This document shows, in pieces, positions 4,752 through 23,482 of a stretch of DNA of 28,898 nucleotides. The stretch lies in IMG/VR virus record IMGVR_UViG_3300043776_000231, positions 1 to 28,898 of that record; one strand, given 5' to 3'. Position numbers and translations under genes: made by a program. Within the stretch, counting starts at the first letter, position 1. Each line of letters opens with the position of its first letter. The notes beneath the pieces were generated by a model, which worked only from the letters and a program-made list of their open reading frames with translations, did no database searches and was not told the origin of the DNA. This stretch comes from a virus.

Positions 4752-6194
4752 TCAGGGATTGATGTAGACTACCACGTTTGAGCCGTTGATCCCACCGGCT
4801 TCTTTACCCGCGATCGACACCAACGGGGCTTGCCGAGTCATCCGCTGAGCCTCACTTTGTAAGGCAACTGGTTGGCTGTAGATGTAGAACCCAAATTGAC
4901 TCACGTTTGAGATAAGATCTGTCGGGTTACCAAATGTTGTCGAGGAGTCCCAGGCACCAGGTGCCAGGTAAGCGTTCGTGACGTATTGGTTACACACGGC
5001 GCGGTAAGCGCCTTTGAGACCATCCATACCCGCTTCCGTTTGAGGTATCTTCGTGGTAGTACCAGCCAGGTAGTTAAACCCAGCTACCTGAAGTGCTGAG
5101 GCAAAAGACAATTGATTGTATACTGCATCAAAGAACTCGTTAGCTCCAGAAGATGAGATACCTGAGTACCCCTGGAAAGACGGATAGCAGTCTACTCCAG
5201 CCGCTAAGCACTCGTTGTAGATAGTTTGGGTCATGCTTGGATCTGGGGCGACTCCAGTTAGCTGCTTGAGCTGCGCGTTCAAGGTGGTGTTACTGGCAGT
5301 GAAGTCCACAGAAAGTAACCGACCCACGTAAGCTGCTTTCATCAGCATCTCGTTTACCGGACCTGCGGCAGAGAGATCTCCATAATATAAACAACGTGTC
5401 TGCGTGTTCTTCGCGGTGGTGTTTGCGGTAAACTCACCGGTGACGTCAGCAGTCCGAGCCGAGACCTCAAAGTACATCAAAGGATTTGCTTGTATCAAGG
5501 TGGCCGCTGCCGCAAAGTCGGTGCTGCCTATCGTCTCGTAGGTAGCCGTTTCAAGAACACCGAAGTAGTTAACTAGGCCCTGGGTGCGAGTGATCGCAGT
5601 AGTCAGGGACTCACCGTTCGTGGATATGGTAGCAGCGATGGTTACTGGAGCTGAACCAGCAGTTTCCAACGTGTTGCTGGTGAAGGTCATGACAGCTGGG
5701 GTCGCCCCGTAGACTCCCCACAACTTGATAGACACGGTGGTGGCTAGTGTACCGGTGACGATGACTCCAGCCAACCCAGGCACAGCTTGAAGCTTGCCCT
5801 GAATCTGGGCTGCTGTGTCTCCAAAGTCTATGGCCGCGCTGGCGTTCCCGTTGTAGTTAGCTATCACGGAGCCAGAAGCCGGAACACCTGATGGTGTCCA
5901 CAGCTGCGTGGCGGTGAGCATCTCGATGATGATAAGCTGTCCATCGGGAGTCAGGATGTTAGGCTGTTGACTGAAGATAGCCTCAGCCATCTGAGCCGTG
6001 ATGGAGCTGGAGCCCCAATCGGTCTGCACTTGACTGGGCTGCACATAAAAACCAAATCCTGCCGCCGGCAAGGAAGCGTTTGGTTGATCGGTCGAGAACA
6101 GCGCGACGTTGCTCGTGTTGAGTACGTTCACTCCGGTGGGTGTTTCACTCACCGACACGTTGATGATGTTCAGCAATGGGATCGTGTTAGGCAT
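4752..6194 (-). CDS. Tail sheath protein (DUF3383-like) with an inserted domain
   Basis: A 480-residue protein starting at ATG 6194 behind AAGGAG. The N-terminus (INVSVSETPTGVNVLNTSNV, ALFSTDQP) and the C-terminal half (YLAPGAWDSSTTFGNP, GFYIYSQPVALQSEAQRMTR) match the DUF3383 sheath pattern. Residues about 100-195 look like an inserted beta domain: FGDTAAQIQGKLQAVPGLAG, followed by VTGT, LWGVYGATPAVMTF. That AAQIQ.kLqalPGl pattern is a small module seen in many phage surface proteins, so it probably decorates the outside of the sheath. It follows a strong promoter-like sequence and a leader of about 80 nt. Confidence 0.88.
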   Translation of the reverse strand: MPNTIPLLNIINVSVSETPTGVNVLNTSNVALFSTDQPNASLPAAGFGFYVQPSQVQTDWGSSSITAQMAEAIFSQQPNILTPDGQLIIIEMLTATQLWTPSGVPASGSVIANYNGNASAAIDFGDTAAQIQGKLQAVPGLAGVIVTGTLATTVSIKLWGVYGATPAVMTFTSNTLETAGSAPVTIAATISTNGESLTTAITRTQGLVNYFGVLETATYETIGSTDFAAAATLIQANPLMYFEVSARTADVTGEFTANTTAKNTQTRCLYYGDLSAAGPVNEMLMKAAYVGRLLSVDFTASNTTLNAQLKQLTGVAPDPSMTQTIYNECLAAGVDCYPSFQGYSGISSSGANEFFDAVYNQLSFASALQVAGFNYLAGTTTKIPQTEAGMDGLKGAYRAVCNQYVTNAYLAPGAWDSSTTFGNPTDLISNVSQFGFYIYSQPVALQSEAQRMTRQAPLVSIAGKEAGGINGSNVVVYINP

Positions 6195-6286
6195 GCTAGT
6201 CTCCTTAGATTGATGCTATATCGGAGCTAGCTGCCGGTAAGTGGCTGGCAATCCTGCGTTGATCTACGTGATGGTACCCTACCTAT

Positions 6287-9285: not shown

Positions 9286-10377
9286 TCAAACGAAAGGAGA
9301 AGGTGTAGCAAACTGGAAATATAGCATCTCAAGTGGTCGGTAGCTCAAAACTCCAGTGAACTGGCCGTACCCGGCGTTCTCAAAGGTGAAATTGTTAACG
9401 CTGTTCGCCAACGTGTTGGTGTAATCCAACGGGATGTCCATCCTCAGTGACTCTTCGTCGTAGTTCAAGAGGATGTACACTTGCTTGTTCGCGATCTGGG
9501 ACACATCCGCATGATACGGCCCGTCTCCATAAGCCAGAGGCATGATCTTGAAGTTCTTGTTCCGGGTGATGACCTGGAAAGTTTCCTCCAAGAGTTGCAA
9601 CGTGGACTTGATCGGAAAGTCAGGCGAAGCCTGGCTGGCTAATCCGTTGTAGTCCGACTCAGGGATGATGAAGTGAGTCGGGAACGTAGTCCTGTTACAG
9701 TTGTTCCTGTAAGCTTCCACGATCTGCGCGGTGAACGTTTTCAGACTTCCAACGCTCAAGGTACTGATCGGGGCGGTCAACACGGTGGTGTTGATGGCCA
9801 CAGAAGGCTGAGTCAAAAGACCCAGAGAAGCACCACCAGGGTTGTTCGAGCCACGGGCTCCGAGGAAGGCAACCCTCTGAATACCCAAGTCCCAGTTGCG
9901 TTTCCGCGCTTTTTCTTTCGCGGCAACGAGATCCCAATTTCCGGCTTTCGCGGCCAGCTCCAGATCAAAGATGCTCCAACCAATAGCTTTCGCCCAGTTG
10001 AAGACCTTGATGTTCAGGGCATCCACGCCGGCATCAGCGGAGGCGAGCTTGGTGTTTGGTGAACCGGTGTTGATGACGCCAGTCTCGAAGTCGTCAGCAA
10101 TCTCGAACGTCCGGTAGGTAGTCAGGTTCGAAGACCACGCGCCCTCGCCCACCCGCACAGGCAGGTAGTCAGCAGGCGGGATCTCATAGAACTTTTGTTC
10201 CGAGATCTTCTTCATGATGGTAGTCAAAGTCGTGATGGGAACTTCATAAGCCAGCGCGTTTGCAAAGCGCTCGTTCACGATCCTTTGCATGTACTCAGCA
10301 TGATAGGCTTCGGCAGGAGTGAGCTTGATCTCCTCTCCCTTGCTGTTTAAAACCGGCGTGTACTTTAACTTGATCAT
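9286..10377 (-). CDS. Major capsid protein (DUF2184-like, HK97 fold)
   Basis: A 363-residue protein starting at ATG 10377 behind AAAGGAGAGG. It has the DUF2184 capsid pattern: YEVPITTLTTIMKKISEQKF, VGEGAWSSNLTTYRTFEIAD, GVDALNIKVFNWAKAIGWSI and a C-terminal GQFTGVLSYRPLEMLYFQF. Length is normal. No long N-terminal scaffold region is present, which agrees with a separate scaffold attached to the protease (11479-13104). It follows the cement gene by 20 bases. Terminator-like hairpins lie on both sides of the pair. Confidence 0.9.
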   Translation of the reverse strand: MIKLKYTPVLNSKGEEIKLTPAEAYHAEYMQRIVNERFANALAYEVPITTLTTIMKKISEQKFYEIPPADYLPVRVGEGAWSSNLTTYRTFEIADDFETGVINTGSPNTKLASADAGVDALNIKVFNWAKAIGWSIFDLELAAKAGNWDLVAAKEKARKRNWDLGIQRVAFLGARGSNNPGGASLGLLTQPSVAINTTVLTAPISTLSVGSLKTFTAQIVEAYRNNCNRTTFPTHFIIPESDYNGLASQASPDFPIKSTLQLLEETFQVITRNKNFKIMPLAYGDGPYHADVSQIANKQVYILLNYDEESLRMDIPLDYTNTLANSVNNFTFENAGYGQFTGVLSYRPLEMLYFQFATPSPFV

Positions 10378-10397: not shown

Positions 10398-11165
10398 TTA
10401 AGCGAATTGGAACGTCGGGGTCTGAACGTGAACCCGGATCAACTGACCAGCAGCAGAGGCCCCGTCCACGGCCCAACCAACGATGTTAGCTCCAGATCCA
10501 CCGCTCTTCGCGGCAACCCCGCCCCCGGTGGTCAGGTCCAACTGAACCTGGGTGAAGGGGGTGATGGCGGTCGTAGACCACAGGTACAAGACGCCTTCGG
10601 TCGTGCACATCTCGATACGGTCGCCGGCGTTGTAGGAAAGACTCTTGATGTCATAGATGATGAACCCAGAGATCGAGTCGGTATCAGCCACGGCTCCGAT
10701 CACCATCGGCAACCGGTTCGCTCCGTTTTGAACGATGGCCGTGTCGATCTTGACCGCCATGCCGTTATAAAGAGGCGCGCTTTGGTTGGGGGAGACCAGG
10801 GCTGACAAAGTTCCAAGGGCAAAGCGCAGGTCGGGCATGCCAACGTAGACACTTTGAGCGAACGCGTTCTGACTCATGGACTGCGCTTGAGTGAGAACGA
10901 CCACCTGCGTGTAGTCCACGGTGGTGGGCCCGGTAGAGTCCGTGGCAGCCAGTTGATAGTAGTAGGTGGTGTTCGGCACGAGACCTGAATCGTTGAGGGT
11001 CAACGCGGTGGCCCCCGTGATGTTGACGTACCCACTTCCAGAAGTCGTAGACCGACCCCATTGATAGGAAACCGTTCCAGACGCGCCGGTAGCGGCGGTG
11101 GCCGTTAAGGTGGCCGTGGTATCTGTGACAGCCTGTAAACTCGCGACTCCAGCGGTGATAGCCAT
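10398..11165 (-). CDS. Capsid cement/decoration protein with N-terminal Ig/FN3-like domain
   Basis: A 255-residue protein starting at ATG 11165 behind AAAGGAG. Residues 1-92 are an Ig/FN3-like beta sandwich (TATLTATAATGASGTVSYQW, LVPNTTYYYQLAATDSTGP). The C-terminal part (MPDLRFALGTLSALVSPNQS, YNAGDRIEMCTTEGVLYLWS, a GGGVAAKSGGSGANIVGWAV end) resembles cement proteins of the DUF2190 or structural-cement type that stabilise the expanded shell. The gene just before the major capsid gene is the usual place for this. The Ig-like part would project from the capsid surface. Confidence 0.7.
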   Translation of the reverse strand: MAITAGVASLQAVTDTTATLTATAATGASGTVSYQWGRSTTSGSGYVNITGATALTLNDSGLVPNTTYYYQLAATDSTGPTTVDYTQVVVLTQAQSMSQNAFAQSVYVGMPDLRFALGTLSALVSPNQSAPLYNGMAVKIDTAIVQNGANRLPMVIGAVADTDSISGFIIYDIKSLSYNAGDRIEMCTTEGVLYLWSTTAITPFTQVQLDLTTGGGVAAKSGGSGANIVGWAVDGASAAGQLIRVHVQTPTFQFA

Positions 11166-11203
11166 GAAAATCTCCTTTTGTCGGTGTGGTTCCTGACAAA
11201 AGA

Positions 11204-11241
11204 AAAGCCAGGAAACCTTGCGGTTAGCTGGCTGGCTTTTA
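11204..11241. terminator. Bidirectional terminator-like hairpin upstream of the cement gene
   Basis: AAAAGCCAG (11204-11212) and CTGGCTTTT (11233-11241) are perfect inverted repeats of nine bases, with an inner AACC/GGTT hairpin. On the minus strand the stem is followed by CTTTTG, giving a U-rich tail. It sits between the HemP-like gene and the cement gene, only 39 bases before the cement start. I see no good promoter after it, so it may act as partial terminator or as a 5' stabilising stem after RNA processing. Confidence 0.6.
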
Positions 11242-11305
11242 TGCTCACTGGCTTAAACTACCTTCTATTTAATATTACCAAAAAACCCGGTCAGTTTAAA
11301 CTACT

Positions 11306-11479
11306 TTATTTCACCAAGATCAACTTGTTGTTCTTCGTCCGTTGTAGTCGGTACTTCGAACCACCGTGCGTGATGACTACCTCGGAAGATCCTCTCAACA
11401 ACTGCTCACTGGTCCAGGTGATCTGAGAGCTCGACAACTTAAGCCGCTCGACATCCTCGACCTGAACGCTATCGTTCAT
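11306..11479 (-). CDS. HemP-like small protein
   Basis: A 57-residue protein. Its ATG (11479-11477) shares one base with the protease stop (TGATG), so it is translationally coupled. Residues 19-57 have the HemP (hemin uptake protein) pattern: ITWTSEQLLRGSSEVVITHG, then GSKYRLQRTKNNKLILVK, matching the family form LF.G..EV.I.H.G..YRLR.T..GKLILTK. Cellular HemP proteins belong to iron and haem uptake loci. Here it sits between scaffold/protease and capsid genes, so a structural or assembly use of the small fold is more likely than haem uptake. The family match is by eye. Confidence 0.7.
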   Translation of the reverse strand: MNDSVQVEDVERLKLSSSQITWTSEQLLRGSSEVVITHGGSKYRLQRTKNNKLILVK

Positions 11480-13104
11480 CAATTCGTCCCGTACCGGCTC
11501 TTACCACGCTCGACCATCGACATCGAGGTCTGCGTGGAGACCGTTGGAGTCTCCTTGTTCAACCGAGCTTCAAACTCGGCGTTCTTAAGGCGTTCGAAGA
11601 TCTGCTTGCTTTCTTCTTCCTTTCGAACCCGAGCTGCTTTCAACTCGGTCGCGTTCTTCATCTTCCCGATGACTTTGAGGATCTGTGCTTGACGAACAGT
11701 CAGGGAGTTCTGCAAGGCTTTTTCCTGACCTTCCAGCTCCTCCATCTTGGCGTTCATCGCGGTTTCATCCTCGGGCATGTCGGCATCGTCCTGCATGGCT
11801 TCATCATCTCCAAACTTGTTGCAAAGATTGGAGAACTCTTCCTTGAGGGCATTGTGCTTTCCACGAAGAGCGTTATGCTTCCCTTTAAGGTCCATGTGAT
11901 CTTTGATCAGATCTCCCACGGTGGTTTCCTCGCCATCCATCACCAAGACGTGCTTCAAAGGAGAACCTTCAAGCTCGTCGTTCTTTTCATCTTCGAGCTC
12001 GTCGTCGTTTTCTTTCTTGTCTTTTTCCTCGTCCTCGTTGGCTTTATCGGTATCAGCTGGGGTGTTTTTCTCCCCGTTTTTTTGCTTGTTCTTCCGACGG
12101 TTCCTCCGAGCTTTCAACTCCTCCTCGGTTTCCTCGTCGTCGTTGTCTTTCTCATCTTTCTCGTCGTCGTTTTCCTTCTCGTCTTTTTCATCCTTGTTAT
12201 GCTCAGGACGCTCGACATCGAGTTCCTCTTCGTTGTGCTCGGGGCGATCTTTACCGGCGTTCAGATCCCAATCGTTGATGTCGGTTTCGAGATCATTCTG
12301 CACCTTGTCGAGGATCTGCGCGATGGTGATGGTCTTGCCTTTTCCGATCGCGACTTCGATCTTGCCGATGTCGCTGGAGTTTTCCACGGGTTCGACTTTG
12401 TCAACTTTATTGGTCTTGCGGAAAAATAGCTTGTCAAGGAGACTTTTCTTCGACTGTGGCATCGGTGCGTCCTCCGTTTGGGATCGTTTATCTTGGAAGA
12501 CGTCAGCCGAGTTTCTCATCGCTGCGAGCTCTTCTTGCTTAACCTTATTATAATCAGAAAACTGTTCGGGAGTAAATACCAAACTCTCCTTATATCTCGG
12601 GTTGGAGACAATTGCAAGGTGCTTGTATTCTGCATCTACAAATTCGCGTGAGTAGGTGACGCCATGCCATTCTCCGCCCGGACCTAAGTTTAATGGCTGG
12701 TAACAATTTGACAGCTTATCTCCACGCTCGATGGCGCGAACACCTTCTTCGCTAGTTATGATGAACTTTGCCCAATGCATGCCATCTGCTGGATTAAAGA
12801 AGCTCTCGATGACGTACCCATCGGCCGTCTTGGCTTCGGGATTTCCCTGTCCATCCTTGGTCACACCTTCGATGGTCTTGTTTTCTTTGTTAGGTTTTTC
12901 ATCATCCACGTGCGCGACGTACATCGGTTTCGTGGAAAAACTCGGGTCCATCTTCTTAGCCGTGTCAGGACCAATGAAGATCCGATACGGCTTACCCCCA
13001 GGGCCATCTGCATACTCAGCTACGCCTGGAACCATGTGGAGCCCGTAGTAGATGGCGGGCCACTTTTGACCGGTGATCGAATTTTTTATCCGCGGATGAG
13101 GCAT
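11479..13104 (-). CDS. DUF2213-like head maturation protease fused to an acidic scaffold
   Basis: A 541-residue protein. Residues 1-175 match DUF2213 proteases: a GPDTAKKM...KPMYVAHVDDE segment, RAIERGDKLSNCYQPL and DAEYKHLAIVSNPRYKES. By comparison with prohead proteases of the herpesvirus fold, Ser132 and His162, with His65, are the likely catalytic residues. Residues about 275-385 are a very acidic, Lys/Glu/Asp-rich disordered tract with heptad-like repeats (PEHNEEELDVE, PEHNKDEKDEK). Residues 410-520 form coiled coil (LKGKHNALRGKHNALKEEF). This is the usual protease-scaffold fusion; it should cleave itself and other head proteins after shell assembly. An RNSADVF peptide at about 193 marks the junction between protease and scaffold. 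Confidence 0.82.
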   Translation of the reverse strand: MPHPRIKNSITGQKWPAIYYGLHMVPGVAEYADGPGGKPYRIFIGPDTAKKMDPSFSTKPMYVAHVDDEKPNKENKTIEGVTKDGQGNPEAKTADGYVIESFFNPADGMHWAKFIITSEEGVRAIERGDKLSNCYQPLNLGPGGEWHGVTYSREFVDAEYKHLAIVSNPRYKESLVFTPEQFSDYNKVKQEELAAMRNSADVFQDKRSQTEDAPMPQSKKSLLDKLFFRKTNKVDKVEPVENSSDIGKIEVAIGKGKTITIAQILDKVQNDLETDINDWDLNAGKDRPEHNEEELDVERPEHNKDEKDEKENDDEKDEKDNDDEETEEELKARRNRRKNKQKNGEKNTPADTDKANEDEEKDKKENDDELEDEKNDELEGSPLKHVLVMDGEETTVGDLIKDHMDLKGKHNALRGKHNALKEEFSNLCNKFGDDEAMQDDADMPEDETAMNAKMEELEGQEKALQNSLTVRQAQILKVIGKMKNATELKAARVRKEEESKQIFERLKNAEFEARLNKETPTVSTQTSMSMVERGKSRYGTN

Positions 13105-13112
13105 CTTGGTCC

Positions 13113-13394
13113 TTAGATCTTCTTTACGTCTTCAATACCTACCGACACCTCGCCACCATCGCTGGTTTCGATGGCCACAGCTTCTTCATCTACTGCGACA
13201 ACCTTTCCTTCATCTCCCCGAAAAGGGCCTTTAACTACTCGAGCTTTATCGCCTCTCTTGATAGAAACAACGTTCTCTTTTTTCATCTCATCTTTGAGCT
13301 TGTCCTCTTCGGTACCAACCTTGACGGTGTCGTTCTGAACCCATTGCAAGTATTCTGTTACCGCATCTACGTGGTTGATCAGGTTTCCACCCAT
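13113..13394 (-). CDS. Small KOW-motif (SH3-like) protein
   Basis: A 93-residue protein. Residues 1-40 are helical and acidic. After a KKENVV peptide, residues 46-75 carry a textbook KOW motif: IKRGDKARVVKGPFRGDEGK followed by VVAVDEEAVAIET. KOW domains in NusG and ribosomal protein L24 bind RNA or protein. Here the protein lies between the lipase and the protease in the head gene block, so it is more likely a virion or assembly protein. The same arrangement, a Lys/Asn peptide followed by an SH3-like barrel, recurs in the 524-residue protein, the portal and the protein at 18727-19338. Confidence 0.6.
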   Translation of the reverse strand: MGGNLINHVDAVTEYLQWVQNDTVKVGTEEDKLKDEMKKENVVSIKRGDKARVVKGPFRGDEGKVVAVDEEAVAIETSDGGEVSVGIEDVKKI

Positions 13395-13467: not shown

Positions 13468-14238
13468 TTAGGGATTCCTAGACTCCGCGTAGACTTGCAG
13501 GATTCTCACATACTTATCAACAGCATGATCTGCCACCCATCGAGGTAGGTTCAACGGGTTCAAGCTAGCCAATAGTCGCTTGGCGCTTGCCTCCCCACCT
13601 TCACATACTGTACCGTCATCTGCCAGATAGCGCACATCTCCGTAAGACCGGTAGCCCATGATCAACAAGGGCACAGCTGGTACCACGTCAGCATGGTGAA
13701 TCACCCGGTAAACTGGAACCTTGAAGATGCAATCTACCAATTGATCGGTTCCTACCCTCGGGCAACCAAAGGTGTAACAAGCAGCCACATGCTCCTCGTC
13801 TTTTAAGAAGATGCTGGCCAGCAAAGCCAGGGCTCCGCCTAGAGAGTGGCCTGTGATGAACACCGGAACTTTGAGCTTCTTTAGGTCCTGCTCGATGCTC
13901 CATCGCATCAACTTGAGCGCGTCTAGGAAGCCTCGATGAACGCTCCCATATCTCGAGTGAACCAGTTTAACATCAAGATCAGTCTCGACCGTCGAGATCT
14001 CATGAGGTACCGTGCCTTTAAAAGCCAGGACCGCGAAGTCGGTGTTGAGCGCCAGGTAAGCTTGGTTGCCGAAGTTGGAGCCATAGGAAGAAACTGGAGT
14101 TAGGTGGAGTCTCTTCAGGAGCCCAGCTTTGTGCGGAGCGTACGCGATCTTAGAGCACTCAGCCATCATGTAGGCAACCCGGTCACTGTAGGCAAGACGG
14201 TTAAGGGGGAGATTCTTGAGAACATTCTTTAGTGGCAT
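13468..14238 (-). CDS. Class 3 lipase-like alpha/beta hydrolase
   Basis: A 256-residue protein. I place the start at ATG 14238, just after GGAGGAAAATA and overlapping the stop of the head gene by one base; an ATG at 14277 would overlap it by 40 bases. Residues 69-76 (AVLAFKGT), 99-106 (SVHRGFLD), 130-134 (GHSLG), 157-164 (FGCPRVGT) and 181-190 (HHADVVPAVP) are the conserved blocks of class 3 lipases. The triad is probably Ser132, Asp184 and His238. There is no signal peptide or membrane segment. A lipase here is unusual; it could attack host lipids on entry or help release. Confidence 0.85.
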   Translation of the reverse strand: MPLKNVLKNLPLNRLAYSDRVAYMMAECSKIAYAPHKAGLLKRLHLTPVSSYGSNFGNQAYLALNTDFAVLAFKGTVPHEISTVETDLDVKLVHSRYGSVHRGFLDALKLMRWSIEQDLKKLKVPVFITGHSLGGALALLASIFLKDEEHVAACYTFGCPRVGTDQLVDCIFKVPVYRVIHHADVVPAVPLLIMGYRSYGDVRYLADDGTVCEGGEASAKRLLASLNPLNLPRWVADHAVDKYVRILQVYAESRNP

Positions 14239-15266
14239 TATTTTCCTCCAAAGCGTACTATAGGAATGGCTCGACATCTACAGTTAAAATCAAACCCGGG
14301 ATTCGCTCGTCGCCCAGTCTCGTCCACGATGGGCGGGTCGTCGAAGCGATAAGTCTTTCCATGTTTTTCCGACGCGTCGTTGAGAGCTTGATGAATGGGC
14401 CGAACAGGGTGAGCCGCTGTTCCATGCACGGCTTTCCACTTGTATTCTTGAACCCCTGCGTCTTCATACCTTGTCTCAGCGTATGAGTTCACCAAGGATT
14501 TGCTCTCCTGACGCGCGATAAGTCGAGCTCGGCTCTGGCTGACTCCGTACTCTGCCTGGATGCCCTTCACCAGGTTGGAGTACCTCGTGCCCACCTGAAC
14601 AGAAGCTGCAACCCGCCCTTTAAGCTTGATGATTTGATCTTCAACCAGGCCCTTGATGGAATGGTTCGCGTTCTCTTTCCACGTCGCGATGATCCTGGTC
14701 CTTTGTTCGTCGCTCAGCTCGGTGGTGAGAGTGATCGCCGCCACGTTCTGTTGGAAGGTCTTTTCGGTCTTCTTGATGGCGTTCTCGAACAGCCGGTTCA
14801 CAGCTACCTTACCGGAGATGGCCTCAGGGTCCAGGGCATCTAGGTACTTCTTTACCTGACCCACCCTCTCTTGATACTCGCCTCGCGTCGAGCTGATCAG
14901 TTGAGACAGTTCTGGAGAAAGTGCGTCTTCGGGAAGTCGAAACACGGCCCAGTGCCGGTCCCACGTAGCTCCGGCGGCCTTGAGCGCCTTTGTCAACCCA
15001 GCATCGAGAGACCCGGAGAACAGCCCGTTGTCGTAAGTCAGGGTCCCTGCCCTCAGCGCCTCACCGATCTTGTAGATGTCCGCGTGCGCCGCTCCGGTGA
15101 TGCTACGGTAGTCTCGAGCCTCGTTCTTGATGACCTTGGGCTTGAGCCGCAGGATAGATAGAAGCCCGGAGTAGATCTCTCTAGTCACGGCTCGTAGGAT
15201 CTCCCGCTCTAACTCGCTGGCTAGAGTGGGAGGAACGGTGACGGGTTTGAGAGGGACGAGCTTCAT
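14238..15266 (-). CDS. Head morphogenesis protein (SPP1 gp7/Mu gpF-like)
   Basis: A 342-residue protein. The C-terminal 110 residues have the Mu gpF pattern: RARLIARQESKSLVNSYAET, YKWKAVHGTAAHPVRPIHQA, and the end GRRANPGFDFNCRCRAIPIV. These proteins sit at the portal as minor head or ejection proteins. It normally follows the portal gene; here more than 4.8 kb of small genes and one modular protein have come between. The start overlaps a junction repeated at 19333-19354. Confidence 0.85.
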   Translation of the reverse strand: MKLVPLKPVTVPPTLASELEREILRAVTREIYSGLLSILRLKPKVIKNEARDYRSITGAAHADIYKIGEALRAGTLTYDNGLFSGSLDAGLTKALKAAGATWDRHWAVFRLPEDALSPELSQLISSTRGEYQERVGQVKKYLDALDPEAISGKVAVNRLFENAIKKTEKTFQQNVAAITLTTELSDEQRTRIIATWKENANHSIKGLVEDQIIKLKGRVAASVQVGTRYSNLVKGIQAEYGVSQSRARLIARQESKSLVNSYAETRYEDAGVQEYKWKAVHGTAAHPVRPIHQALNDASEKHGKTYRFDDPPIVDETGRRANPGFDFNCRCRAIPIVRFGGK

Positions 15267-15267
15267 C

Positions 15268-16842
15268 TTACACCTTCTTTACTTTATAGCGAATCTTGTA
15301 GTATTCCTTTTCACCTTTAGACAGTTGGGCGGTCATTCTCTTGGCTGTTTCTTTAGCTTCAACTTCGGTTAATGGTTCTGACTGCCATTCCTTTTGCCCA
15401 ATTGATCCGCCCTGACGTATAACTCGAAAATTGTGGGCCTCGTCATTTTTCTGCGGTCCCAACCCATGTTTTTTCTTCAAGCGATCCCAACGCTCTTTAA
15501 CCATGGATTTAACCTTGGATTCACTGGGCATACCGCCTGGAAGATCCCCGTTGTCCTCCGTGTCAGATAGATGATCCATAACAAGGTCTACAAGCTCATC
15601 AGCTGTATCTGGTGTAAACGACATGGCAGCCTCGTTGATAGTTGAAACAATATAAGAATCAGAAGCATTTTCCTTCTTGGTCTTCACGTCCACGGTGGTG
15701 GAGTTGGAGTTCTTACTAGATAGCTTATCTTCCCAATACCGCTTAGCATCAGCATATGCTTTCTTTGCAACATCCATCGGAACATCAAACTGTTTCACCA
15801 GCATGTTAATACACTGCTGTGCATTCCACCCCTCATGAATAGCCTCATCTAGGGCAGACGCCGTTTGAGCGGGAAGATTGGCATTTTCTTTCTTATCAGG
15901 AACGGAGTTAGAAGTCGGGGACGACTTTACCAGGTATAGCATATCATCGGGCACAGGTCCCAATTCTGGTAACCCAGAGACTTTTATCGACACCCGACTC
16001 CCAGAAGCAAACACAACGGTGCCGGTCTTCCCATAATACTTCATCAGCTTTTTTAACTCAGCCGGATCATCGTCATAAGCATCTTCAATGTCCATCTTAT
16101 AGTCCTGGCCAAACTTAACAACATCGCCCTTTTTCAAACCAACTGCATTTTTCTTCTCCCCGGTGTCATCGCCTTTGTTCTTCTTGCGCCAGGGATGTGT
16201 AGGAGAAGATGTTTTTTTCAGGTCCTTTTCAGCATACTTATTTCCGCCTTTTAATACAACTTTATTAGACGAGTCATCATATCCTGTAACCTCTGCAACC
16301 CATTCCTCTGGAGACTCTGCATATGTGACGTGATCTCCGATGGAAAACTTCCGTTTTTGATTGGGGGCTATTTCTACATCAGCCTCATCGTACCATTTCA
16401 CTCCACCTTTATCGAGTTGAATTTGATAAAAGATTACACCTTCATTTAAAGATTCAGAATCAGTGTCTTCCTTTACCTTAACAATTTTTCCAGGCTTTCC
16501 ATCAGCAAGTACTCTATCACCACGATTAAAGGAATTTGTTATTCTGGCGTTCTTCTTGGTCTTGATGTCCACGGTGGTGGAGTCTGAGTTCATCATCCCA
16601 TGGCCATCAAGAGCTTCTCTCCAAGCATCATCTAGATTGATGCTGGCACCAGTTGCTTTCTTTGACTTCGTAAGGTACATCTTGACATCTTGCTTAAGAT
16701 CCACAATGTCATTAGGAGAAAGTTCAAAATCTTGAATCTTTTTCATTGCCCAGGAAGGAATGCTAGCATTCTCCTTTTTCTCTTCCTCGTTCTGAATTCG
16801 TTCCAGCTCTTGTTCCAACGGTCCATGCAGGTTAAGTCCCAT
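15268..16842 (-). CDS. 524-residue modular protein with SH3-like and helical modules
   Basis: I do not recognise the whole protein. It is a chain of small modules separated by Lys/Asn peptides: KKENAS (about 23), KKNAR (95), KKNAV (231), KKENAN (319), KKENAS (396) and QKNDEA (469). After the second come two SH3-like stretches (NRGDRVLADGKPGKIVKV; FSIGDHVTYAESPEEWVAEV), after the third another (LKKGDVVKFGQDYKM). After the fourth is a three-helix UBA-like segment (CINMLVKQFDVPMDVAKKAY). After the fifth comes a helical segment, and the last 55 residues form an alpha/beta module ending KVKKV. The peptide STTVD[IV]KTKK[E]NA occurs twice. It is cytoplasmic in composition and probably a virion or internal-head protein. 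The linkers may be protease sites. Confidence 0.6.
   Translation of the reverse strand: MGLNLHGPLEQELERIQNEEEKKENASIPSWAMKKIQDFELSPNDIVDLKQDVKMYLTKSKKATGASINLDDAWREALDGHGMMNSDSTTVDIKTKKNARITNSFNRGDRVLADGKPGKIVKVKEDTDSESLNEGVIFYQIQLDKGGVKWYDEADVEIAPNQKRKFSIGDHVTYAESPEEWVAEVTGYDDSSNKVVLKGGNKYAEKDLKKTSSPTHPWRKKNKGDDTGEKKNAVGLKKGDVVKFGQDYKMDIEDAYDDDPAELKKLMKYYGKTGTVVFASGSRVSIKVSGLPELGPVPDDMLYLVKSSPTSNSVPDKKENANLPAQTASALDEAIHEGWNAQQCINMLVKQFDVPMDVAKKAYADAKRYWEDKLSSKNSNSTTVDVKTKKENASDSYIVSTINEAAMSFTPDTADELVDLVMDHLSDTEDNGDLPGGMPSESKVKSMVKERWDRLKKKHGLGPQKNDEAHNFRVIRQGGSIGQKEWQSEPLTEVEAKETAKRMTAQLSKGEKEYYKIRYKVKKV
15673..15714 (-). repeat. Linker-coding DNA repeat, copy 1
   Basis: This 42-base stretch is nearly identical to 16552-16593 in the same gene. 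Both encode the linker STTVD[VI]KTKK that precedes a KENA or KNA peptide. Differences are few, mostly silent or conservative, so the copies look recently duplicated or homogenised. Confidence 0.75.
16552..16593 (-). repeat. Linker-coding DNA repeat, copy 2
   Basis: Second copy of the linker repeat; the two copies are in the same orientation about 880 bases apart. They flank four to five modules of the 524-residue protein, and recombination between them would delete those modules in frame. Confidence 0.75.
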
Positions 16843-18499: not shown

Positions 18500-18730
18500 C
18501 TACTTGTCAAACTTATCGATGTCCTTTTGAGATGGCCATAAAGGAGACGATGTGGCTACCAGATGCCGATACTTAGTTGCAACATCTGGAGAAACTCCAA
18601 ATTTTCGACTGATGGCGCGATCCATATCTTCATCATATTGATAGCTGCCTCGTTGTTGAGCTTGCATGATCCAACCAACGATGGTATCAGAATCGTGCTT
18701 GGCGTTCCTAATTAAAATAGGCGCCTTCAT
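18500..18730 (-). CDS. Single helical module protein, unknown function
   Basis: A 76-residue protein whose ATG overlaps the stop of the upstream gene (ATGA). It starts MKAPILIRNAKHDSDTIVGW, with an RNA-type Lys/Asn peptide at residue 8, then has helices around IVGWIMQAQQRGSYQYDEDM, ISRKFGVSPDVATKYRHL and a short tail. The helical part resembles the UBA-like segment of the 524-residue protein (KQFDVPMDVAKKAY against RKFGVSPDVATKYR). It ends in TAG inside a perfect 7+7 inverted repeat (18492-18510, TTGACAA/TTGTCAA). Confidence 0.55.
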   Translation of the reverse strand: MKAPILIRNAKHDSDTIVGWIMQAQQRGSYQYDEDMDRAISRKFGVSPDVATKYRHLVATSSPLWPSQKDIDKFDK

Positions 18731-19338
18731 TTGATCCTCCCGCCCATCTTCTTATACACTGCCGTCACCTCAGGCCAGTTATACTCTCCGCCCTTCTTGC
18801 CCACCGCTTTCTTTGCGGCTTCCCAAACGCCTTCATCGCGCATCCACGAAGGGTTCTCCACCCGTTCCATATCATCGTTCCTGAAGCCTGCTTCCTTCTT
18901 CAAGTTAACGTCTTTGACCGTCACCGTGTCACCGGTCTTGGCCAGCTTAACCGACCAGCCTTCAGCAGCGCTTCCTGATACGACCTTCGCAGGCTGCCAC
19001 TCACCGCCGTGAGAAACTTCGACGAAGTCTCCAGGTACTACCACTCGAGCGTTCTGCTTATCTTCCACGATGCTGGTGCCGGTGGTGATGGGGACTTCGA
19101 CGCCGAGGGCATTCTCCACGTCCTCTGGATACCTTGAGCTAGCCCCAGCTTCGAGATCGGGGAAGGTGTCTTTGTCATACATATCTCGCACGATGGCTTT
19201 AGCCTTATCTCGGGAGATCTTAAAAGCTTGCACCGCGTCATCTATGCACTGCTTGGGAGAGTCTGCGTGCCAGGACCTCTCCATCACAAACTTCCGGATC
19301 TCGGCATCTTGAGCGTTGGTGATGATGGGGATCTTCAT
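18727..19338 (-). CDS. Helical plus SH3-like module protein, unknown function
   Basis: A 203-residue protein. Residues 1-60 are a helical module beginning MKIPIITNAQDAEIRKFVME and containing AVQAFKISRDKAKAIVRDMY, related in form to the UBA-like segments nearby. After a DKQNAR peptide (about 97) comes an SH3-like stretch, VVVPGDFVEVSHGGEWQPAK...WSVKLAKTGDTVTV. The last 45 residues hold a small helical segment with two Trp (VENPSWMRDEGVWEAAKKAV, GGEYNWPEV). The first 22 bases around its start are shared with the start of the head gene at 15266. Confidence 0.6.
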   Translation of the reverse strand: MKIPIITNAQDAEIRKFVMERSWHADSPKQCIDDAVQAFKISRDKAKAIVRDMYDKDTFPDLEAGASSRYPEDVENALGVEVPITTGTSIVEDKQNARVVVPGDFVEVSHGGEWQPAKVVSGSAAEGWSVKLAKTGDTVTVKDVNLKKEAGFRNDDMERVENPSWMRDEGVWEAAKKAVGKKGGEYNWPEVTAVYKKMGGRIK

Positions 19339-19689: not shown

Positions 19690-19935
19690 TTATCGACTTA
19701 GATCAACGAGAATGTTCTGCGCTACCACGACACCATCGTGCGCTTTCTTAAGCGCCGACTTCTCTGATGGATCTAACTGCCCGCGATCTAGCATGTGCAT
19801 GATCGTGCTAGCCGCGTTGTTCAAGTTTCTTCGAGCATACCTAATGTCATCGGGATTAGCGGCGTTCTTCACACCCTCTTGCTTCTCTTCTTGAATGATC
19901 TTTCCACCGCCCACGACTAGTGATCCGTCTTTCAT
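19690..19935 (-). CDS. Small protein with C-terminal helical hairpin, unknown function
   Basis: An 81-residue protein with ATG overlapping the upstream stop (ATGA). The N-terminus MKDGSLVVGGGKIIQEEKQE is a flexible lead, then a VKNAANPDD peptide, then a helical hairpin (IRYARRNLNNAASTIMHMLD, SEKSALKKAHDGVVVAQNIL). Helix-peptide-helix form and the KNA peptide match the rest of the module set. A shortened relative of its first part is at 19640-19678. Confidence 0.5.
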   Translation of the reverse strand: MKDGSLVVGGGKIIQEEKQEGVKNAANPDDIRYARRNLNNAASTIMHMLDRGQLDPSEKSALKKAHDGVVVAQNILVDLSR

Positions 19936-20114
19936 CTCAGTAACTCCTTGATCAGAATGTCTTCATCCACGTGCCTCATGATGGGTTTCAACTCCAGCGT
20001 ACCTGCTGCCAACGGAACCCACCGCCACTGGCTCACCTCTTCATCCGGGTCGTCGATCGTACGAGCCATCACGCGTTCTGGTAGTTGCACGGTGAAGGCC
20101 TGCTGGTCGGTCAT
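19932..20114 (-). CDS. 60-residue duplicate of the NUDIX C-terminal end
   Basis: Starts MTDQQAFTVQLPERVMARTI and continues DDPDEEVSQWRWVPLAAGTL. It aligns along its whole length with the last 56 or so residues of the portal-NUDIX protein (YTLTLPQKEQARTMNDPDLE, VERWRWVDLSPNTLEL, EADEDIAVNTLL). The catalytic NUDIX box is absent, so it cannot hydrolyse substrates alone. DNA identity outside the 64-bp repeat is low, so this is an old duplicate or the tail of a second NUDIX gene whose front was lost. Its ATG overlaps the portal stop. Confidence 0.7.
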   Translation of the reverse strand: MTDQQAFTVQLPERVMARTIDDPDEEVSQWRWVPLAAGTLELKPIMRHVDEDILIKELLR

Positions 20115-20167
20115 GCAGTAACTCCTTCTAACAAAGTGTTCACGGCGATGTCTTCATCGGCTTCTCT
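20104..20167 (-). repeat. 64-bp exact direct repeat, copy 2
   Basis: The resident copy: end of the portal-NUDIX gene with its stop overlapping the ATG of the next gene. See the copy at 19583-19646. Confidence 0.9.
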
Positions 20168-22849
20168 GTTCCAGGACCTCAGCTCCAACGTATTCGGTGA
20201 CAAGTCCACCCACCGCCAGCGCTCTACTTCCAAATCCGGATCATTCATAGTCCGGGCCTGCTCCTTCTGAGGCAATGTCAGTGTGTAGCAGACCACCTGC
20301 GTTCGGTGGTCGGGATAACTATAAACTTTTTCGGTCAAATGTTCCAATTGATCCACAGCGGCCACCAAGCCGGTTTCCTCTTGAAGCTCCCGGACTGCGG
20401 CATCTTCAAAGCTCTCACCTTCGTTACACGAGCCCCCGGGGTTCGTCCAGCAGCCGGTGTCTCGTCGCTTTCCCGTCAACAAGCTGTTGCCGCATCGGAC
20501 AGCCACGACTGCCACGCGCTTGAGGGGGCGAGGGTCTGCGGAGTTGCTCAACTTGCCTTCTTCCCACAGCTTCTGGGTAAGTAAGTTGGCTTCTTGCTCA
20601 AAGATGAACCGGCCTTTATGCATGAAGCCTTTATAGTAGTCAGATAGCACTGCCCCCTTAGGTAAACTGGCTAAGATGTCTAGATGAAGTTGGTCAAATC
20701 TACCCTCGTGAACAGCCTTAGTTTTTTTATCCATAAGGGCCGGTGTGAGACCAATCTTCAGCCGCTTTTTAACAATCATATCATCCTGTCGACCAGCGTT
20801 CATCTTCCGAACACTCTCAGCTCCAGTTTCATCCCATTCCGGACACCAAGAACCGTCGCTGAACTTTTGATACTCGCCTTTTGCCTTATAAAAAGAAACT
20901 CGGATACTGTTATCAGAATCAATACCATCAACAACCCCAGTTGCTCCTTTATAAGAAACTCTATCGCCACGTTTGATGATCTTGTTGTTGGCATCTCGAG
21001 CCGTTCTAGCTTCACCGTTATCCATGGTGACGTGCCCACGTCCATTGTTCACCCTTCTCTGCTCCGGCGCGTCTTTAGCCTCGGTCTTAGGAACGGTCTT
21101 TTGCGGTTTGGCTTCCTTGGCTTTAGGAACCTTGGGATCCGGCGCATCGTCGGTATCTTTAGCCGCTGGCTTTTCCAGCTTCAGCTCATGTTGCGCATCC
21201 TCATCGTGTTCCAGCGGCGCATCCATCCATTCCCGCTGAGTTGGGTTCTCCTCTTTTTGCTTTTGGGCAGGAGTAGCTTTGGTCTTATGCCCTTTACCAG
21301 AACCGCTATACTCAAATGGAGTAATGGAACGAGTATCTACACGGTTAGCTCCAGGATCGAGACTATCAAACGGTCGGTTAGGATCAACCAGATCGCTCTC
21401 CTTAGCTGTGTCAAATGGAGCTGAAGGGTTAAGCATGTTTGGTGATTCAAGTTGAATGTCAAAGAGGTTTCCTTTATTTGCCGCGTCGATAAACTGTTGT
21501 GGAGTTATAAGTCCCTCTGCAGCAGCTTCTTTAAGACGAGCAAACTTCTGCGTTTTAACCGTCTCTTCGTCCGGGGCTGATAAGACTCGTAGTGGTTTAA
21601 AGGTGACCATCAGGTCATCGGGTACCATCTGAAAAAGCTTCTGGCACTTGATCTCGATCATGCGAAGTACCATGTACTTCACCTTAGACCGAACTTCTGA
21701 TTCGACAGAGGCATTATAATTTTCGATGTCATCTTCACCGGAGTTAAACCCAGCAGCTGAGATGCCAAAAAGCTTGGTGAGTGGGATACGCATCTCTGAC
21801 GCGATCTGAATGCGGCACTGAACCATGACATCAGAAAGACCAGAGAAGTTTAACTGCTTCTGTTCGTATTCGTCTTCACTGTCAATCACAATCGCATTTT
21901 GAAAATTTTTGATCTGGTTCGCTGTTGCCACGCGTTGTTTAACTCTGTTCGCGCCTTGAGGTGATAGCAGAGTGTTAACCAGATTCTTGATATGATACAC
22001 GTCCACCTTAGCTTCATCAAGAAGTTCGAAAGTCAGGGATGTGTTTTTTATATATTGATTAAGGCTTCGCACCAACCGCTCTACGACTGAAAAACCCCAC
22101 CCCCGGAGCCGCGGGCGCACAAAGGAAGGTGCCACGAGACCTTTCAACCGCATCACCCGGCTGCGATGAACCAGTTTGCCATAGTAGTTATAATGCTCTT
22201 GAGTGTGCTCCATCAACGAGGGGTCAAAAGCGTCATTGACGTTCTGGTCCATGTAAAACAGCTCCCACATATCTACAGCCCTAAATTCAAGTGGAGAGTC
22301 TTCAGTGATCTTGGTAAGATCCAGAGGAGTTCGCGGGTCTTGGTCGGTCAGGATGATGACACCGCCTCCGCCAAACAACCGAGACCACTTAGCTGCTTGA
22401 GCCACGGTGTTTAGATCGTCATCACGGTCTAATGATATCTGAAGCTCTTCAACCTGCTCAGGAGAAAGTTGCTTAGACTTTATCTCCATTCCACCACGGA
22501 ACGCATCGTCTACTGGCACGTCTACGATGGTGGAAATCAATCCAATCTCGACGTACGCCTCGCTGAGGACTTGTCTGAAGTTGCTAACAAAATACCATCG
22601 TAATGCCTTAAAGATGGTGTTCGCGTTTGAAAGCATCTCGCCGCCGAACTCAGCAGACCCTGGAAGACCAAAGGGATTAAATGCAAAGCCCCCGTTCACA
22701 CCGCCAGGAAAGTTAGCTAAAGAAGACCCGAAACCAACAAAGTTGCCGCCGTCATTTTCGATACGGTCTTCCGCGTTCTTGAGACGGTTGCGCAAGATCT
22801 CCTCGGTGTTTACGCCAGGGGGAAGATAGATGACTTTTTGTTCAGACAT
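20111..22849 (-). CDS. Portal protein (DUF1073-like) fused to an SH3-like segment and a NUDIX hydrolase
   Basis: 912 residues from ATG 22849, which follows AGAGGTGG and overlaps the upstream stop by eight bases; an upstream ATG at 22903 would overlap further. Residues 1-490 are a DUF1073-type portal (VDVPVDDAFRGGMEIKSKQL, AKWSRLFGGGGVIILTDQDP, LFGISAAGFNSGEDDIENYN). Residues 500-620 are a charged, Pro/Lys-rich linker. About 640-700 is SH3-like (IIKRGDRVSYKGATGVVDGI). A helical segment follows, and a KLSNSADP peptide comes before the NUDIX domain (777-912). The NUDIX box is complete: G-x5-E-x7-REL-x-EE-x-GL in GGSCNEGESFED...RELQEETGL (about 806-828). The portal forms the DNA gate; the NUDIX part should hydrolyse nucleoside diphosphate-linked molecules and would be carried in the virion, about twelve copies. 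Confidence 0.88.
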   Translation of the reverse strand: MSEQKVIYLPPGVNTEEILRNRLKNAEDRIENDGGNFVGFGSSLANFPGGVNGGFAFNPFGLPGSAEFGGEMLSNANTIFKALRWYFVSNFRQVLSEAYVEIGLISTIVDVPVDDAFRGGMEIKSKQLSPEQVEELQISLDRDDDLNTVAQAAKWSRLFGGGGVIILTDQDPRTPLDLTKITEDSPLEFRAVDMWELFYMDQNVNDAFDPSLMEHTQEHYNYYGKLVHRSRVMRLKGLVAPSFVRPRLRGWGFSVVERLVRSLNQYIKNTSLTFELLDEAKVDVYHIKNLVNTLLSPQGANRVKQRVATANQIKNFQNAIVIDSEDEYEQKQLNFSGLSDVMVQCRIQIASEMRIPLTKLFGISAAGFNSGEDDIENYNASVESEVRSKVKYMVLRMIEIKCQKLFQMVPDDLMVTFKPLRVLSAPDEETVKTQKFARLKEAAAEGLITPQQFIDAANKGNLFDIQLESPNMLNPSAPFDTAKESDLVDPNRPFDSLDPGANRVDTRSITPFEYSGSGKGHKTKATPAQKQKEENPTQREWMDAPLEHDEDAQHELKLEKPAAKDTDDAPDPKVPKAKEAKPQKTVPKTEAKDAPEQRRVNNGRGHVTMDNGEARTARDANNKIIKRGDRVSYKGATGVVDGIDSDNSIRVSFYKAKGEYQKFSDGSWCPEWDETGAESVRKMNAGRQDDMIVKKRLKIGLTPALMDKKTKAVHEGRFDQLHLDILASLPKGAVLSDYYKGFMHKGRFIFEQEANLLTQKLWEEGKLSNSADPRPLKRVAVVAVRCGNSLLTGKRRDTGCWTNPGGSCNEGESFEDAAVRELQEETGLVAAVDQLEHLTEKVYSYPDHRTQVVCYTLTLPQKEQARTMNDPDLEVERWRWVDLSPNTLELRSWNREADEDIAVNTLLEGVTA

Positions 22850-23165
22850 GGACCACCTCTTTACCTTCATCCTCCGGTCTAAATCGTACTGCAGTTCCTT
22901 CAACCCAATCGGGGATCTCTACGATCTGGTTCTTTAACGCGTGCTCATAATCACCAAGATATTGGATTGACCCATTGCGGATGAAGGAGTGACAACGAAT
23001 AGGAGAAGGAACGAGTAGAGAGGGTGAAAAAGCGGGATGCGTCATCGAGTGATCCCAATGCCAGTCAGGAACATGCACAGGATGCATGTATTTGCACGCT
23101 GGACAAAAGAACGCGAAGATGCTCTTGGCGGGAGTAGATGCAAAAAGATGAAGCTTGATGCCCAT
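22842..23165 (-). CDS. DUF6527-like small zinc-binding protein
   Basis: 107 residues from ATG 23165 behind CGGAG; a TTG at 23186 is less likely. The pattern is FAFFCPACKYMHPVHV with a CxxC pair, a WHWD motif, then RCHSFIRNGSIQYLGDYEHA and VEIPDW near the end. This CHSFi.nG.iqfl.D..Hal....v.lPdw order is that of the DUF6527 family, for which I know of no function. It overlaps the portal start by eight bases, so the two are coupled. Confidence 0.7.
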   Translation of the reverse strand: MGIKLHLFASTPAKSIFAFFCPACKYMHPVHVPDWHWDHSMTHPAFSPSLLVPSPIRCHSFIRNGSIQYLGDYEHALKNQIVEIPDWVEGTAVRFRPEDEGKEVVHV

Positions 23166-23217
23166 GCCACAGCTCCGATGATTCAATGATTATCGCTGGC
23201 GGTGGCTGGCGGGACTT

Positions 23218-23408: not shown

Positions 23409-23482
23409 TGGTCTTTCTACCTGGAGTCGAACCAGGGCCTCATGGTCCCAAACCACGAATGCTGCCATAACACCTTAGAAAG
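23409..23482 (-). tRNA. tRNA-Pro (anticodon TGG)
   Basis: The minus strand folds into a full cloverleaf of 74 nt with an encoded CCA. Acceptor CTTTCTA pairs with TAGAAAG, discriminator A. D-arm GTGT/GCAT has two wobble pairs around TATGGCA. Anticodon arm CGTGG-TTTGGGA-CCATG has T33, TGG at 34-36 and G37, as in proline tRNAs. T-arm CCTGG-TTCGACT-CCAGG is perfect. Position 8 is A, not the usual T. TGG reads CCA and, by wobble, CCG. It starts five bases after the upstream gene stop. Confidence 0.88.

Follow-up and report, generated by a model that had tools for sequence, protein, structure and literature searches.

A tiny regulator that in bacteria switches on haem-uptake genes, HemP, is encoded among the virion genes of a phage, which raises the question of what such a protein does there. 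The window (the whole stretch of DNA analysed, a 28.9-kb IMG/VR virus record) is a fragment of a contractile-tailed phage with the minus-strand gene order terminase; DUF6527; portal-NUDIX; small genes; MuF-like; class 3 lipase; KOW; protease-scaffold; hemP; decoration; capsid; and tail genes including the sheath. The actions reported for HemP in bacteria vary between those of a DNA-acting activator, a post-transcriptional activator and, in Stenotrophomonas, a repressor.

The initial annotation had recognized a 57-residue HemP gene at 11306-11479, and these coordinates are right, the coding strand being the minus strand. The product of 11479-11306 is MNDSVQVEDVERLKLSSSQITWTSEQLLRGSSEVVITHGGSKYRLQRTKNNKLILVK, which at 57 aa falls within the length of the HemP/HmuP family (<~90 aa), and the hemP ATG overlaps the stop of the preceding 541-aa protease-scaffold gene as AATTGATGAAC, in agreement with the coupling described earlier. 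The HemP identity was fully supported by a search of Pfam-A, in which PF10636 (hemP) matched at 58.3 bits (E 6.9e-16; curated cut-off 25 bits), residues 22-57 aligning with profile positions 2-37 of 37, while PHROGs held no family matching the protein. A PDB sequence search with phage HemP returned 2JRA, 2LOJ and 4YNX, all of the HemP/YdiE type, and the same three (4YNX, 2JRA, 2LOJ; E 0.008-0.05, probability 1.00) were the best PDB folds for an AlphaFold model built with 17 bacterial HemPs, whose mean pLDDT exceeds 90 over about residues 21-57. By sequence and fold, then, the gene encodes a genuine HemP/HmuP-family regulator. In the alignment with the 17 bacterial HemPs, H38, Y43 and the KLILVK end (KLILxK) are kept in the phage protein; the matching His and Tyr are residues reported to take part in haem binding (PMC9241770), making H38 and Y43 candidate haem-binding residues by alignment. 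The next folds after the HemP structures were C-terminal domains of ribosome hibernation factors (TM about 0.45, E 0.8-1.5), a model-based likeness that is weak, yet interesting for a proposed translation regulator. The phage gene was acquired from a bacterium, and its bacterial matches (about 40-63% identity) lie mainly in Alpha-, Beta- and Gammaproteobacteria, a spread over several classes that points to no single donor.

Bacterial HemP/HmuP acts via a direct-repeat response element, the HPRE (GCCAGCC...GCCAGCC), lying in the leader of whichever gene comes next after hemP. ChuP, the HemP homologue of Chromobacterium violaceum, has been described as a haem-binding post-transcriptional activator that works through HPREs in receptor-gene leaders, CCCGCAAGCCAGCCGACAGCCAGCCAGCG before chuR and GCCAGCCAGACGACGCCGCCG before vbuA (PMC9131926), and such leaders occur widely among alpha- and betaproteobacteria (PMC9241770). 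For 80 bacterial hemP genes, the 150 nt that follow were compared with the rest of the same loci, and in these flanks GCCAGCCAG was 73-fold and AGCCAGCCAGC 371-fold denser than elsewhere. A two-copy motif was present in 38 of the 80 flanks versus 2.6% of control pieces, the 80 loci being phylogenetically non-independent. The motif matches the HPREs of PMC9131926, and its enrichment identifies it as a hemP-linked element independently of the phage. Ten of the genes downstream of bacterial hemP were tested: eight code for TonB-dependent receptors or haem proteins of the HemS type, a ninth matched a different family and the tenth gave no Pfam match. The distance from the second repeat to the ATG in bacterial leaders is mostly 30-50 nt.

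A matrix derived from these bacterial elements found its best match, of all positions of the window on both strands, in the leader between hemP and the decoration gene. This gap contains AAGCCAGTGAGCATAAAAGCCAGCCAGCTAAC and holds the element as GCCAGTGAGC-N6-GCCAGCCAGC, with one perfect repeat copy and a first repeat bearing two mismatches, and the leaders of the tail sheath and of DUF6527-portal satisfy the two-copy rule. The core GCCAGCCAS occurs four times in the window, always on the sense strand, where 0.39 occurrences were expected and none of 100 shuffles attained four, and three of the four matches lie in these short leaders. Leader by leader, p is about 0.0003 for decoration/capsid, about 0.001 for the sheath and about 0.0003 for DUF6527-portal, values that are uncorrected for 20-34 testable leaders and concern short motif cores of 7-9 nt; four other intergenic leaders of the window scored nothing for an HPRE. 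With the DUF6527 start set at ATG 23165, and including the relatives described below, the second repeat lies 35-44 nt from the ATG in five of six phage leaders and 71 nt from it in the decoration leader. The repeats had gone unnoticed in the initial annotation, of which the HemP identity stands and the assembly role does not.

Table 1. Features of the window bearing on hemP and its putative target leaders
Feature	Position	Strand	Description
DUF6527-portal leader, HPRE direct repeat	23191..23210	minus	GCCAGCCACC (23210-23201), GCCAGCGATA (23200-23191)
DUF6527 gene, between HPRE leader and portal	22842..23165	minus	PF20137 E 6.1e-7
Portal protein fused to C-terminal NUDIX domain	20111..22849	minus	PF06381 E 2.5e-65; PF00293 E 9.1e-18
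Protease-scaffold gene, translated just before hemP	11479..13104	minus	phrog_2229 head maturation protease, weak (E 0.0028); homologue in phi1422
hemP	11306..11479	minus	57-aa HemP/HmuP-family regulator; PF10636, PDB matches by sequence and fold, invariant residues
Decoration and major capsid leader, HPRE direct repeat	11227..11252	minus	GCCAGTGAGC (11252-11243), GCCAGCCAGC (11236-11227)
Predicted hairpin masking decoration-gene ribosome-binding site	11173..11203	minus	UCUUUUGUC...GACAAAAGGA; folding z -4.2
Decoration-type gene, first behind HPRE	10398..11165	minus	Ig/PKD-like domain and minor-capsid-like domain
Major capsid protein	9286..10377	minus	PF09950 E 1.7e-16; phrog_264 E 8.5e-35
Tail-sheath leader, HPRE direct repeat	6226..6249	minus	GCCAGCCACTT (6249-6239), GGCAGCTAGC (6235-6226)
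Predicted helix of repeat 2 with sheath ribosome-binding site and start	6190..6235	minus	GGCAGCUAGCUCC with GGAG-ACUAGC-AUGCC; folding
Tail sheath protein	4752..6194	minus	phrog_205 E 2e-57

Several further features of the window were recorded. The only element found by an Rfam search was a tRNA, and a tRNA-Pro (TGG) gene lies at 23409-23482 (-), upstream of the portal operon. The class 3 lipase gene (13468-14277 (-), PF01764 E 1.2e-24) sits in the head cluster between the MuF-like and protease-scaffold genes, followed by the KOW-domain protein at 13113-13394 (-). Short SH3-like segments (GDRV...G.V) similar to the latter are visible by eye in neighbouring products, including 15268-16842, 18727-19338 and 20111-22849 (-), the last in the portal linker. 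In the portal protein, the NUDIX hydrolase domain follows a charged linker at the C-terminus, and a short ORF at 19932-20114 together with the gap 19689-19594 (-) resembles pieces of this NUDIX C-terminus (DPDEEVSQWRWVPLAAGTLEL...), in the manner of duplication remnants.

IMG/VR was searched with the capsid, portal and sheath proteins and yielded many relatives. In L109 and L110, the two closest by portal, a two-copy element stands directly before the portal gene, and the closest sheath relatives, L189 and L190, carry one before the sheath gene in which the 11 nt CGGCAGCTAGC are unchanged. When 434 leaders of eight late genes from relatives were scanned, a strict rule (random rate 0.05%) selected only L109, L110 and one chance case, the MuF leader of L012, and a relaxed rule (0.55%) added only L189; these counts are descriptive, since the elements were noticed before the rules were fixed. 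A terminase scan for closer relatives returned only L109. The position of the repeats is conserved within one clade, and the wider group has neither hemP nor the repeats. The portal-NUDIX fusion is also common to L109 (3850-6420) and L110 (451-3366).

Taken together, we consider it fairly probable that the captured HemP acts in trans on the HPRE leaders of the virion operons and increases their expression at a post-transcriptional step, perhaps in response to haem. The weakest point of this reading is that a single hemP-positive phage is known and that the relatives bearing the repeats are fragments. Among the alternatives, an unlikely one is that hemP is an auxiliary metabolic gene whose extra HemP raises host haem or siderophore receptors, the HPRE behind it being a leftover of a captured bacterial hemP-receptor intergenic region. 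This would fit the role of HemP known from bacteria, as well as the bacterial order in which an HPRE directly follows hemP, but it leaves unexplained why HPREs also precede the sheath and DUF6527-portal, at distances of 5 and 12 kb, and why they occur in L109, L110 and L189/L190. It also sits poorly with the window itself, which contains no gene for haem uptake or transport, a matter of genomic context that does not touch the identity of the protein. Nor did the window yield a Fur box within 3 mismatches, and Fur control was rejected as well. With response elements lying before virion genes of the phage itself, control of phage genes is a better explanation than altered iron handling.

Slightly less probable again is that the phage leaders make use of host HemP. 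The HPREs would then have been in place first and hemP joined them later, in a single lineage, to boost the dose or as insurance, with the elements perhaps serving as a sponge for host HemP. The occurrence of HPREs in several relatives when hemP was seen once speaks for this order of events, as does the breadth of HPRE leaders in the proteobacterial classes named above (PMC9241770). However, L109, L110 and L189/L190 are 4-7 kb fragments lacking head genes, so that these phages may still carry hemP, and a pure sponge would need no phage hemP.

It is improbable that the repeats are bound by some other factor, such as the KOW protein (13394-13113), or that the repeat-containing hairpin behind hemP, AAAAGCCAG...CTGGCTTTT with a T-rich tract after it, is an intrinsic terminator, the likeness to an HPRE being coincidental. 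The KOW protein does resemble transcription antiterminators (phrog_6386 E 2.8e-5), and the gap sequence behind hemP shows a 9-bp stem with TTTTCTTTT after it. Nevertheless, a terminator scan did not flag this gap, the two-copy motif recurs in other leaders and in relatives without such a stem, and the motif occurs exactly where the HPRE sits behind bacterial hemP.

From a supposedly fixed place between scaffold and capsid genes, the initial annotation had argued that HemP is used in head assembly, a view to be given up if close relatives lacked the gene. A conserved head component should occupy the same place in related phages, and a PF10636 search found hemP in 0 of about 70 related virus records, the slot itself being empty. 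Nearly all relatives with both genes have a scaffold-decoration spacing of 0-61 nt with no intervening gene, and the 152-nt gap of L008 is likewise without hemP. A HemP HMM built here detected no hemP in 184 viral loci, and viral collections scanned with HemP by itself or with alignments of HemP yielded no other confirmed phage HemP; one of the same alignment queries (A2) confirmed 300 bacterial hemP loci in a genome collection. The only HemP matches in a phage tblastn, to 'Acinetobacter phage MD-2021a', were rejected, the surroundings being ordinary bacterial chromosome genes in the one of two records inspected. L006 (CAKLQH020000004.1), filed under that name, is bacterial-chromosome-like, with penicillin-binding protein 1B, QseBC and secretion genes. 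Only one hemP-positive phage is known, and the gene is a rare acquisition, which argues against an assembly role. A structural or assembly role for HemP in the head is thus highly improbable and, by the earlier annotation's own standard, refuted. In its favour is that hemP adjoins the protease-scaffold gene with overlapping stop and start; against it, the same slot lacks hemP in all relatives with an otherwise conserved head module, and the fold and sequence of the protein are those of a regulator family.

For an action of phage HemP on the phage's own virion leaders, a mechanism can be proposed. By default, the HPRE leaders of decoration and major capsid, sheath, and DUF6527-portal would hide the ribosome-binding site and start codon, the second repeat itself forming part of the masking strand, and binding of HemP, possibly haem-bound, to the repeats would switch the RNA and raise expression post-transcriptionally, as has been proposed for HmuP and ChuP at haem-receptor genes. 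In the predicted folds of the phage leaders the ribosome-binding site or start is hidden, often with repeat 2 as the opposing strand. Outside the conserved core, the pairing partners in the window's sheath leader are not those of L189, yet in both leaders they are still predicted to pair. Compared with shuffles of the upstream part of the leader, SD+AUG pairing reached significance in the decoration leader (p 0.007) and in L189 (p 0.02) and was borderline in L109 and L110 (0.07). Taken singly, the window's sheath (p 0.25) and DUF6527 (0.76) leaders were not significant; the combined p was 0.007 when L189 was left out. In bacteria, words complementary to the repeat were enriched at the downstream start (14/28 vs 27/276), a figure inflated by related Thiobacillus, and SD accessibility in HPRE leaders was only slightly lower (p 0.04), too weak an effect for generally hidden ribosome sites in bacteria to serve as a main argument. 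Masking of the start site by the phage leaders is thus plausible but unproven, as a prediction from folding.

Translation of hemP falls between that of the scaffold/protease and that of decoration and capsid, so its product could time or boost the bulk synthesis of coat and tail, and it could couple that synthesis to the haem or iron state. More tentatively, and with somewhat less than even confidence, we suggest that this phage clade has rewired late expression, with a haem-responsive regulator of bacterial origin at its centre, HPRE translational switches on the portal, decoration/capsid and sheath operons being opened by phage HemP so that virion production is timed, and maybe gated, by haem or iron. 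Genes that viruses borrow from their hosts usually serve to alter metabolism; in this case a nutrient regulator of the host seems to have been captured with its target sequence and put over the genes of the virus particle. If this is true, virion production is linked to haem status, and the 57-aa protein and its direct repeat of about 25 nt form a compact natural pair for settling how HemP acts on RNA, so that the disputed mechanism could be tested directly without a haem operon. Set side by side, the bacterial and phage leaders suggest a concrete hypothesis for such work, namely that the repeat masks the ribosome-binding site.

In the literature searched, with most subscription papers outside its scope, there was no report of HemP in a phage or of HPREs on virion genes. 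The nearest named phage, Bdellovibrio phage phi1422, whose capsid protein is 55% identical, has the same order of portal, MuF-like, protease-scaffold, decoration, capsid and sheath genes, but it has no hemP, a 23-nt scaffold-decoration gap and no HPRE. Com-mom of bacteriophage Mu (PMC6483171) likewise involves a small phage protein made just upstream of its target and thought to act on a structured leader, although Com, a zinc-finger protein, is no relative of HemP and has one DNA-modification gene as its target rather than several virion genes. The closest parallels are the bacterial HemP/HmuP/ChuP systems (Ensifer meliloti HmuP-shmR; C. violaceum ChuP-chuR/vbuA, PMC9131926), which share with the phage a PF10636 protein with the His, the Tyr and KLILxK and, in the leader of the following gene, a direct repeat of the GCCAGCC type whose second copy mostly lies about 30-50 nt before the ATG. 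The phage pair differs in being carried by a virus, in having decoration/capsid, sheath and DUF6527-portal behind the repeats instead of haem receptors, in the absence of a detected Fur box and in having a scaffold/protease gene as the upstream neighbour of hemP. The HemP family and the HPRE are known from bacteria, and a phage HemP accompanied by HPREs on virion genes is the new part.
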